This document shows, piece after piece, positions 1 to 46,795 of a stretch of 64,000 nucleotides of DNA. The notes beneath the pieces were generated by a model that saw nothing but the letters and a program-made list of their open reading frames with translations, searched no databases and had not been told where the DNA came from. Each line of letters opens with the position of its first letter. The stretch's first letter is position 1. Source of the DNA: Pseudodesulfovibrio sp. JC047 (GTDB lineage: Bacteria; Desulfobacterota; Desulfovibrionia; Desulfovibrionales; Desulfovibrionaceae); NCBI RefSeq assembly GCF_010468615.1, contig NZ_WUEH01000009.1, positions 62,001 through 126,000 of the forward strand. Direction: 5' to 3'. The position numbers were made by a program, and so were the translations under genes.

Positions 1-2
1 GG

Positions 3-1046
3 CGTGAAATCCATTTTCATCATGGGGCACGGGAAGTGTTGGCCCGAGTTTATTTATTGGATCGAGAGGATCTGAAACCGGGCGAGACCTGTGTGTGCCA
101 GGTCCGGTTTTCCGAACCGCTGGCCGCAGTGTATGGCGACCGTATTGTTTTGCGCGCATTTTCTCCGCTCCGCGCGTTTGCGGGCGGGCGGGTGATAGGA
201 CCCGTCGGACACAAGGTCAAACGGTTCTCAGGCAAAGTGGGCCGTATGCAGCAGCTTGCTGCGGACACGCCCGAAGCCGTGGTGACCGCTCAGTTGGAAC
301 TGGTTGGTCCCGCTGGTCTGACATTTGCTGAACTGCTGACCATGACCAACCTTGAAACCAAGGGGCTTGAAAAAACGCTGGGCGTGCTCGGCGGACAGCA
401 GAAAGCCATTTTGTTCGACAAGGAGACCCGTCGGTATGCCGGAGGCGAATTGGCGAAAAATCTTGGCGAGAGCCTGCATGATTTCCTGACAGATTTTCAT
501 GCCAGGGAGTCCATGAAACCCGGGGTTCAGCGGGGTGAATTGGCGTCGTCGTGGGGCACGGATTTACCACCTAAGCTCTTTCATTTCGTGGTGGAACGAG
601 CCATCAAGGCCGGGACCATCGTTGCCGAGCAGGAATTGTTGAAACTCAAAGGCCATACGGTCTCGCTTGCGTCGGATCAGAAAAAGGTTCGAGAAGTGAT
701 TTTGGACGCGTATACCAAGGGTGGAAGCACGCCGCCGAATCTCAAGGATGTTCTTGAACCGCTTGGCATGGATTTCAAGCAGGCCGCGTCTGTCTTGAAG
801 GTGTTGCAGGAGCAGGGCGAATTGATTCGTCTCAAAGGCGATATGTATTATCACAGGACCGCCCTGGATGACCTTCAACGGCGGATATGTGATTTTTTTG
901 CCGACAATCAGGAAATGTCTGCGCCAGACTGCAAGGAGATCACCGGGCTGTCCCGGAAGTATCTCATTCCCATATTGGAATATTTTGATAAAGAGAAATT
1001 GACCGTTCGGGTGGGAGACGTCCGTCATCTCCGGAAACGTTCTTGA
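3..1046 (+). CDS. selB: Selenocysteine-specific elongation factor SelB, C-terminal part (cut by window edge)
   Basis: SelB is the GTPase that delivers Sec-tRNA(Sec) to UGA codons by binding both the tRNA and the SECIS hairpin in the mRNA. The frame is open from the first bases of the window, so the GTPase domain lies outside. The visible 347 residues begin with the beta-barrel signature (R-I/E-I-H-F-H-H-G-A then ARVYLLD, GD-R-I-V-L-R and AGGRVIGP), which is characteristic of SelB domains 3-4. After it comes a long helical/winged-helix region ending in SRKYLIPILEYFD and VRHLRK, as in the SelB C-terminal winged-helix repeats that bind SECIS RNA. A GTG at 36 is an internal codon, not the start. 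The gene shows that this organism decodes UGA as selenocysteine, which matters for the UGA-containing gene at 45728..45889. Confidence 0.93.
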   Translation, partial: REIHFHHGAREVLARVYLLDREDLKPGETCVCQVRFSEPLAAVYGDRIVLRAFSPLRAFAGGRVIGPVGHKVKRFSGKVGRMQQLAADTPEAVVTAQLELVGPAGLTFAELLTMTNLETKGLEKTLGVLGGQQKAILFDKETRRYAGGELAKNLGESLHDFLTDFHARESMKPGVQRGELASSWGTDLPPKLFHFVVERAIKAGTIVAEQELLKLKGHTVSLASDQKKVREVILDAYTKGGSTPPNLKDVLEPLGMDFKQAASVLKVLQEQGELIRLKGDMYYHRTALDDLQRRICDFFADNQEMSAPDCKEITGLSRKYLIPILEYFDKEKLTVRVGDVRHLRKRS

Positions 1047-45326: not shown

Positions 45327-45617
45327 CTAGGCAGCCAGTTTGACGGTCATGAATTTGAAGATGCCGTCGGTGATGCGGATGTTGCGTTCCAGTTCGGCAA
45401 CCAGTGCACCGGGAGCGGTGTACACGAGGCGTACATAGTATCCACGGGTCTGCTTTTGGACGGGGTAGGCCAGTTGGCGCATGCCCCAATCATCGGTCTC
45501 AACCATTTTGCCGCCTTCACGATCCACGATGGTGGTGAGGGTTTCCAGGAGTTCTTTCCTGTTTTCCTCAGCCAACTCCGGGGAGAGAAGCACGAGCGTC
45601 TCGTAGTTGTTAGCCAT
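45327..45617 (-). CDS. rpsF: Ribosomal protein S6
   Basis: A 96-residue 30S protein with the family pattern [16 protein letters not shown], then W-G-M-R-Q-L-A-Y-P and YYVRL. It is the first gene of the rpsF-rpsR-rplI-dnaB transcript, with a good ribosome binding site (AAGGAG) and a near-consensus promoter upstream (45684..45712). Confidence 0.96.
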
Positions 45618-45727: not shown

Positions 45728-45889
45728 CTATTTCTTCTTTGAAGTCTCTGTTTCGTCTTCTTTGGGCGGCGTCCAGCCGCAGCGATCATTCGAAGGGCCT
45801 CAACCGCCTCCACCGAGTTTGCCTCGGACCATTCGTCCGATCACCAAGCCAAGGGCGACCAATCCGATGAGTTGTACCCATTCCGGCAT
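45728..45889 (-). CDS. Candidate small membrane selenoprotein (in-frame UGA at codon 30)
   Basis: This 53-codon gene is not a plain open frame. The ATG at 45889 has AGGAG six bases upstream and begins nine bases after the purC stop. Codons 1-29 give M-P-E-W-V-Q, a membrane helix (LIGLVALGLVIG), basic residues (R-M-V-R-G-K) and G-G-G-G. Then comes UGA (45802-45800), followed without interruption by G-P-S-N-D-R-C-G-W-T-P-P and a charged tail (KEDETETSKKK) to TAG. A hairpin of bacterial SECIS type lies at 45766..45780. The UGA would encode Sec30, with Cys37 seven residues on. The layout (one helix, Gly-rich, Sec in the soluble tail) is reminiscent of eukaryotic SelK/SelS, by analogy only. If UGA is a stop, the product is a 29-residue peptide. 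I know no named family. SelB at the window start shows Sec decoding is available. Confidence 0.55.
45766..45780 (-). promoter_or_regulatory. SECIS-like hairpin downstream of the UGA
   Basis: On the minus strand GCGGC, loop TGGAC, GCCGC: a 5-bp GC stem whose loop starts 24 bases after the UGA and has G as second loop base. Published bacterial SECIS rules (apical loop 16-37 bases after UGA, G in the first two loop positions, stem of at least 4 bp) are met. It is followed by CCAAAG rather than T residues, so it is not a terminator. Confidence 0.5.
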
Positions 45890-45898
45890 ATGCGTCTC

Positions 45899-46795
45899 CT
45901 ATACGTTGAGGTCTTCTCCTGTCAGCATTTTGTAGGCTTTCAGGTAGTTGGCTCTGGTTTGAGCGGCGATATCCTCGGGAATCCGGGGTGCTGGCGGTTG
46001 CTTGTTGAATCCGATTTCCTCCAACCAGTCACGGAAATACTGCTTGTCAAAACTGGGTTGTGGCTGGCCTGGTTCATATCCTGCTTCAGGCCAGAATCGG
46101 GAAGAATCCGGGGTCAGAGCTTCATCGATGAAGATGAGTTCATCATCCAGCAAGCCGAATTCAAATTTGGTATCGGCAATGAGGATGCCGCGTTCTTTGG
46201 CGTAATCACGGGCGCGGGTGTAGATATCCAGCGTCAGTTTTTCAACCTTGCGCAGCATTTCCTCCCCAAGCAGGTCCGCTGCCTGAGCGAGCGTGATGTT
46301 TTCATCGTGGTCGCCGATTTCCGCTTTGGTGGAGGGCGTGAAGAGGGCTGTCTCCAGCATTTCGGATTCTTTCAGATTGGCGGGCAGGTCGTGGCCGCAG
46401 ACCGTGCCGGTTTTCTGATAGTCTTTCCAGCCAGAACCGGTGATAAAGCCGCGGACGATACACTCGATGGGAAGCGGTTTGGCCTTTTTGGCCAAGACGC
46501 TCCGGTCTTGAAGCATCGCTTTGTATTTGTGCAACGGTTCGGGATAGTCATCCACATTTGTGGCGAGAATGTGGTTGGGAACCAGGTCTTCCATCATTTT
46601 CATCCAGAAGAGGGTGATCTGATTCAGAACTTTTCCCTTGTCTTTGATGGGGTCGGGCATGACTACGTCGAATGCGGAGAGCCGATCCGTTGTCACGAGG
46701 AGCAACGTGTCAGCGTCAATCTCGTAGATGTCGCGGACTTTTCCTTTGGAAATGAGTGGATATTCGGTGATATTGGTTTCCAGAACGCCTGCCAT
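45899..46795 (-). CDS. purC: Phosphoribosylaminoimidazole-succinocarboxamide synthase
   Basis: PurC joins CAIR and aspartate in purine synthesis. The 298 residues belong to the longer SAICAR synthetase type: GKVRDIYEIDADTLLLVTTDRLSAFDV (ATP site), ECIVRGFITGSGWKDY, FTPSTKAEIGDHDENI and LIFIDEALTPDSSRFW. It lies 37 bases after hisD and 9 bases before the UGA-containing small gene, with which it probably shares an mRNA. Confidence 0.96.
   Translation of the reverse strand: MAGVLETNITEYPLISKGKVRDIYEIDADTLLLVTTDRLSAFDVVMPDPIKDKGKVLNQITLFWMKMMEDLVPNHILATNVDDYPEPLHKYKAMLQDRSVLAKKAKPLPIECIVRGFITGSGWKDYQKTGTVCGHDLPANLKESEMLETALFTPSTKAEIGDHDENITLAQAADLLGEEMLRKVEKLTLDIYTRARDYAKERGILIADTKFEFGLLDDELIFIDEALTPDSSRFWPEAGYEPGQPQPSFDKQYFRDWLEEIGFNKQPPAPRIPEDIAAQTRANYLKAYKMLTGEDLNV

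Follow-up and report, generated by a model that had tools for sequence, protein, structure and literature searches.

Comparative evidence for an overlooked family of small membrane selenoproteins in Desulfovibrionales and other bacteria

Within a 64,000-nucleotide stretch of the Pseudodesulfovibrio sp. JC047 genome (hereafter, the window), a short minus-strand frame is interrupted by a TGA triplet, raising the question of whether the gene ends there or continues as a selenoprotein and, if it continues, what such a protein might do. The frame opens with an ATG at 45889, reaches TGA at codon 30 (45802-45800), and closes with a TAG at 45730-45728, such that the feature as a whole (45728..45889) comprises 53 codons plus the TAG, and its product reads MPEWVQLIGLVALGLVIGRMVRGKLGGGG-U-GPSNDRCGWTPPKEDETETSKKK. 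It lies between two genes on the same strand, purC upstream (45899..46795) and rpsF downstream (45327..45617). Direct reading of the sequence agrees with the initial annotation, both on this frame and on its start signals: an AGGAG ribosome binding site (45896..45900, minus strand) overlaps the purC stop codon and sits six bases before the ATG, which follows purC by nine bases. The initial annotation also conceded that a single sequence is weak proof, a caution that is well founded, given that, in the loci examined, 73% of ordinary TGA ends are followed by an open tail of at least 14 codons. The signal beyond chance thus comes from conservation across homologues, not from the window sequence alone; together, the homologues and the conservation of their tails rule out a chance open frame.

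A protein search of 60 relatives returned matches in 50 at E ≤ 1, the strong ones containing TGA, and recovered the window's own gene at 98% identity to the query. Since the query carried Cys in place of the UGA, TGA was scored as a mismatch, and the search did not favor it. Across the order (297 genomes), a 21-member profile matched 122 at E ≤ 1e-4 and 140 at E ≤ 0.01; we use the former figure because 18 genomes have a best E value above 1e-4, and the one inspected (G244, locus L114, E = 0.004) was rejected as a family member. With a 71-member profile, matches at E ≤ 0.001 were found in 169 of 395 genomes of the phylum, representing 112 of 246 genera, and the gene is carried by genome G087. 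Among Planctomycetota, 24 of 246 genomes match, and reading each sequence resolved these into 20 UGA forms, three Cys forms, and one weak match (G803) that is not a family member.

We also scanned a genome collection with the DNA pattern N-(K/R)-x-x-L-P-(K/R)-x-G-(V/I)-x-T-TGN, leaving the third base of the final codon open. At least 120 stretches match, and all 120 of those listed have TGA at this codon and a hydrophobic stretch before the motif. Taxa represented in 80 of these (at least 120) matches include Geobacter, Trichlorobacter, Desulfuromonadales, Syntrophobacteraceae, Planctomycetota, Spirochaetes, Acidobacteria, Aminicenantes, KSB1, and Neomarinimicrobiota. Judged by such matches, the family is present in several bacterial phyla, a breadth beyond what could be known when the locus was initially annotated. 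Within the order, 16 genomes of genus g15 have no match and two more have only weak ones; 15 of the 16 keep selB, and the gene seems to have been lost in this lineage. Three loci (L034 in G023, L037 in G020, and L093 in G060) hold two tandem, diverged copies, both of which contain an in-frame TGA; in the second copy, U-M-T or U-M-P follows the helix.

Both UGA and Cys forms, which the initial annotation had proposed seeking among Desulfovibrionales, were found, and 153 distinct proteins (a set that partly overlaps the pattern loci) were extracted. Extraction read TGA as Cys and cut at TAA or TAG, such that Sec and Cys forms are treated alike and any TAA or TAG forms would be missed; start codons were picked by a simple ribosome-site score. 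The set leaves out L029 (on a truncated contig, with its start missing), L180, and L114; the duplicate loci L046-L068, L072, L116, L118, and L132; the selB and tRNA loci L044, L045, L115, and L146-L153; and two repeats of identical proteins. At the column of the window's UGA, the codon is TGA in 152 of the 153 proteins and TGC in one (G223), and the 152 continue beyond the TGA with tails of 14 to 36 residues (median, 20), as the initial annotation required of its reading. For the order and phylum profile matches, sequence-level confirmation of this column is limited to the loci retrieved; with stops read through, no match at E ≤ 1e-4 is interrupted by TAA or TAG alone.

Cys forms (TGC or TGT at this position) number five: those of G223, G866, G880, and G937 and a paralogue in G682, all of which read a similar tail without recoding. 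One Sec/Cys pair falls inside a single genus (g43), in which G226 has TGA and G223 has TGC. That all 120 listed pattern matches have TGA does not demonstrate an absence of Cys forms, because the pattern requires N-(K/R), L-P-(K/R), and T before the final codon, and each of the five Cys forms fails one of these elements.

Members of the family share a common layout: about 50 residues, with one N-terminal membrane helix, a Sec motif, a later Cys, and a charged tail. In the window's protein, the single helix predicted from hydropathy and charge spans approximately residues 5-21 (45827..45877, minus strand), the putative Sec30 is encoded at 45800..45802, and Cys37, the presumed redox partner seven residues further on, is encoded at 45779..45781. 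Most members have (F/L)-P-(K/R)-x-G-x-x-(T/G)-U after the helix, from which the motif in the window's genus, R-x-K-x-G-G-G-U, differs. A Cys follows the Sec position in 146 of 152 UGA homologues, at a distance of five to seven residues in 137. The partner Cys is absent from L026, the second copy of L093, L155, L158, L160, and L162 and distant in L156 and L159; as these members keep their UGA, the partner may be dispensable. Under the positive-inside rule, the positively charged flank of a membrane helix faces the cytosol, and since 96% of the 152 homologues carry a more positive net charge on the C-terminal side of the helix than on the N-terminal side, we infer that the Sec tail is cytosolic. 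Eukaryotic SelK and SelS likewise have one helix, a Gly-rich stretch, and a Sec near the C terminus, a likeness of layout for which no homology is claimed; the present protein is shorter, and its family has a bacterial-type hairpin inside the coding region.

What a protein of this design might do is inferred here from its neighbors, which vary within Desulfobacterota. The gene is linked to purC and rpsF in many Desulfovibrionales loci, and in some relatives of Geobacter a CcdA-like gene and a TlpA-like gene (both named by eye) lie on the opposite strand; in the window itself the neighbors are housekeeping genes, with no sulfur operon seen around the small gene. Neither purC nor rpsF is taken to be a functional partner, the linkage having been seen only among loci of the order; the phylum-wide loci gave no match in the same test.

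Outside Desulfobacterota, a sulfur or thioredoxin neighbor lies within 5 kb of the gene in 13 of 25 loci and is lacking from the other 12. This count used MBL-rhodanese, sulfide:quinone-reductase-like, TauE, YgaP-like, and thioredoxin genes as queries and covered 25 of 27 loci (L317 and L342 were left out), several of them close relatives; L314, L318, L320, L321, L339, and L348 supplied the queries, so their own matches are not independent. Gene orders run rhodanese/YgaP, MBL-rhodanese, UGA gene, TauE in L314; MBL-rhodanese, DUF6691/Sulf_transp protein, UGA gene in L348; YgaP-like helix protein, UGA gene, thioredoxin in L320 and L321; and TauE, MBL-rhodanese, Cys gene, and a gene related to type III sulfide:quinone reductase (its NF049943 score is 259 bits, against a cut-off of 525) in L339 and L340. 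The MBL-rhodanese, which we take to be of the persulfide dioxygenase type from its domain content and general knowledge, no curated model having exceeded its cut-off, occurs in 13 copies across 26 genomes. Six of these copies, including that of the query (itself chosen because it lies beside the small gene), are no more than 5 kb from a member of the family. Other neighbors are TauE/SafE, YgaP-like, thioredoxin, and sulfide:quinone-reductase-like genes. In G682, the Cys paralogue (L318) adjoins genes named by eye as an ArsR-like regulator and a sulfide:quinone-reductase-like protein. In a MAG of the Pirellulales (L322, the same place as L196), the tail runs in frame into a thioredoxin with a WCGPC motif, which may represent either a second start or a fusion joining the mini-selenoprotein to its reductant.

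On the strength of these neighbors in other phyla and of the charge pattern, we propose, tentatively and at somewhat less than an even chance, that the protein is a membrane-anchored, cytosol-facing relay for sulfane sulfur or redox equivalents, a function that is inferred. Sec and Cys would act at the membrane as a selenenylsulfide/selenol pair; this pair would accept sulfane sulfur, or reduce persulfides, arising from sulfide:quinone reductase and rhodanese-type proteins; the sulfur would be passed to persulfide dioxygenase or released as sulfide; and thioredoxin would regenerate the reduced form. That a real selenoprotein has some other job, be it as a recycling partner of a thiol peroxidase, in the repair of membrane oxidants, or as an adaptor of the SelK/SelS type, stands at close to an even chance. 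The lack of a sulfur operon around the window gene is compatible with such roles, as are the resemblance in layout to SelK/SelS and the context of L322, where the in-frame thioredoxin is preceded by open reading frames judged by eye to be peroxiredoxin-like and rubredoxin/rubrerythrin-like; weighing against them is the recurrence of MBL-rhodanese, TauE, sulfide:quinone-reductase-like, and YgaP-like neighbors around Sec and Cys forms alike, in several planctomycete and other loci.

Were the UGA instead a true stop, the product would be a 29-residue membrane peptide, and the conservation downstream would reflect an RNA hairpin or a regulatory leader. Short membrane peptides do exist, open tails after ordinary TGA ends are as common as given above, and, in the window's sequence taken alone, the region around the UGA is not more stable than its shuffles (z = +0.60, with 141 of 200 shuffles folding at least as well). 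However, the tail behaves as coding sequence. For 25 members belonging to the window's genus, dN/dS is 0.17 upstream of the UGA and 0.36 downstream; pN/pS of the tail is 0.51 in the read frame but 1.03 and 1.50 when the other two frames are used, and variation is greatest at third codon positions. As such, within this genus the coding signal persists past the UGA, where the initial annotation would have been refuted had it ended, and from these substitution patterns the tail is judged to be under purifying selection as a protein. The frame contrast is weak in two broader groups that are near divergence saturation (tail pN/pS of 0.76 in frame versus 0.92 and 1.03 in one, and 0.75 versus 0.79 and 1.22 in the other). 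A true stop is also hard to reconcile with the Cys after the UGA in nearly all homologues, with the Cys codons that occupy the UGA position ahead of similar tails in five genomes, with the lack of TAA or TAG as the only inner stop among the order and phylum profile matches at E ≤ 1e-4, and with the association between UGA and SelB in Planctomycetota described below; we consider it very improbable.

The RNA downstream of the UGA carries a signal of its own. In the window, a bSECIS-like hairpin, GCGGC-UGGAC-GCCGC (45766..45780, minus strand), has G at the second loop position, with its stem beginning 19 bases and its loop 24 bases past the UGA, exactly the 5-bp geometry initially described; a terminator is ruled out by the lack of a T-run after it and by its position inside a conserved frame. 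The rule given for bacterial SECIS elements in PMC13188914 calls for a G at the first or second loop position and a loop 16 to 37 bases from the UGA. This rule is met by 133 of 152 UGA homologues (hairpin score ≥9; the other 19 score below). Hairpins reach this score after only 17.5% of 868 ordinary TGA ends and in 17.2% of 2,982 coding windows from the same loci. Under synonymous resampling of tail codons, the mean score of the 152 homologues falls from 10.1 to 4.7, and their mean folding z against such resampling is −0.89. In the pattern set (118 of the 120 listed loci), 93 of 118 score ≥9 versus 15.8% on average under synonymous resampling, and the mean score is 10.3, as opposed to an average of 4.3 and a maximum of 5.1 in 100 resamplings. 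Planctomycete UGA forms follow suit, with 17 of 20 at ≥9 and three below. None of the five Cys forms reaches 9 (the best scores 8), and within g43 the UGA form of G226 has the hairpin, whereas the Cys form of G223 lacks it. Stem sequences vary widely among lineages yet stay paired, a description and not a test, since hairpins were picked for their pairing. Comparative evidence, without experiment, supports a role for the hairpin 3′ of the UGA in decoding.

The machinery to decode the UGA is present in the window's genome, which has selB, selD, and tRNA-Sec (C19:23026-23115, 76.2 bits); its selD (C23:26653-27582) has an in-frame TGA and so is of the Sec type. The placement of SelB within the window, as initially reported, holds in part: about 1,034 bases of selB, the 3′ part (1..1034, plus strand), lie inside, and the rest precedes the window, which begins at C9:62001 (the match spans C9:61145-63034; 398.9 bits). 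Curated cut-offs for selB are exceeded in 58 of 60 relatives, the remaining two being 82% complete. Among 22 genomes reached via pattern loci, selB was found in 16, including all six named isolates (Pelotalea chapellei, Thermodesulfatator autotrophicus, Pelovirga terrestris, Desulfacinum hydrothermale, Desulfuromusa kysingii, and Aquisphaera insulae); the six without it are labelled as MAGs. Eight genomes have a UGA gene without a selB over the cut-off, namely, G029 (82% complete), six MAGs (G678, G684, G685, G692, G697, and G698), and G707 (2.1 Mb).

In Planctomycetota, selB exceeds the cut-off in 19 of 20 genomes with UGA forms versus none of the three with only Cys forms (G866, G880, and G937; Fisher's P = 0.002). 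The last three are single-contig genomes, with G880 and G937 being close relatives by gene order, and the link rests mainly on them because selB is common in this phylum anyway (found in 8 of 13 no-match planctomycetes tested). The other two Cys forms occur in genomes with selB: G682, where the Cys paralogue accompanies a UGA form, and G223, which also possesses tRNA-Sec and a UGA-containing selD. Within the order, 17 of 19 no-match genomes tested (from 157 in all) have selB, the exceptions being G120, in which tRNA-Sec is over its cut-off, and G123. Genomes with SelB but without a detectable gene are therefore common, implying that the gene is dispensable. Under the initial annotation, homologues lacking the tail in the presence of SelB would have counted as refutation; the homologues keep the tail, although the SelB-positive genomes without the gene, and G223 with its Cys form, do not fit this test fully. 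In the reading that we prefer, SelB and tRNA-Sec would decode the UGA as selenocysteine, aided by the 3′ hairpin. That the UGA is instead read by near-cognate suppression (known in bacteria) or reassigned to Trp or another residue is scarcely credible, given that TGG occurs at this column in none of the 153 proteins or the 120 listed pattern matches (where TGG was allowed), that the natural substitutes seen are Cys codons, that selD of the same genome contains a UGA, and that a SECIS-like hairpin is present.

The family corresponds to no known one among those we compared. With sets of 21 and 35 members, no NCBIfam model (June 2026) was better than E = 0.02 and nothing in Pfam exceeded its curated cut-off (best E, 0.0055), and PDB sequences gave a best E of 0.33, leaving no relation to a solved structure. 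The FeoB-associated family PF12669 consists of tiny single-helix proteins with a Cys after the helix; four of the 21 members are weakly similar to it (best E, 0.0055), but it was rejected at 14.9 bits versus a gathering threshold of 27, and the 35 diverse members gave no match. YgaP-like_TM (PF11127) is likewise a small membrane protein found in rhodanese and sulfur-transfer gene groups and is encoded near the family gene in L320, L321, L341, and L350 and as a rhodanese fusion in L314 and L315; it is a separate family, which the present members do not match. With bacterial SECIS-directed selenoproteins, the family shares the in-frame UGA, the loop G and its spacing, SelB, tRNA-Sec, and the U...C motif, differing in that its Cys forms are rare (five found) and not common.

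As for the literature, no description of such a family was found in titles or the openings of abstracts (subscription papers and preprints were outside the scope) or in the available passages of PMC12013277, PMC9312934, PMC1914089, and PMC2398784. The part of PMC13188914 that was available tabulates 119 families of bacterial SECIS-directed selenoproteins, none of which is by name a 50-residue, single-helix protein. In the accessible passages of PMC2398784, the GOS_A family is credited with 155 Cys homologues. Those of PMC12013277, on deep-Sep, state that all known selenoproteins now seem to have Cys homologues and that proteins without them may be filtered out, and list, for Salidesulfovibrio onnuriiensis, 10 selenoproteins that were already known and none that was new.

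Overall, the initial interpretation of the locus as a small membrane selenoprotein is supported, with evidence beyond that on which it was based. On comparative grounds, without experiment, we are nearly certain that this is a genuine, overlooked bacterial selenoprotein gene. The best explanation of the observations as a whole, an apparently undescribed selenoprotein family decoded through SelB, tRNA-Sec, and the hairpin, with an inferred sulfur relay, we consider highly probable. More specifically, it is possible, if short of an even prospect, that an ancient mini-selenoprotein serves as a membrane selenol relay between sulfide:quinone reductase, rhodanese/persulfide dioxygenase, and thioredoxin, one that would have gone unnoticed because frames of 29 codons are discarded in gene calling and selenoprotein finders rely on the existence of Cys homologues. 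Catalogues of selenoproteins have the same dependence on expected Cys homologues, and with so few Cys forms here, together with matches in 169 of 395 genomes of the phylum, published selenoprotein counts for sulfate and metal reducers are probably underestimates. If this reading is true, the active site remains Sec almost wherever the gene and the Sec machinery co-occur, which would make the family a case in which selenium is chemically hard to replace. A protein of about 50 residues that places one Sec and, in most members, one Cys at the membrane also offers a simple system in which to ask why certain sites retain selenium.
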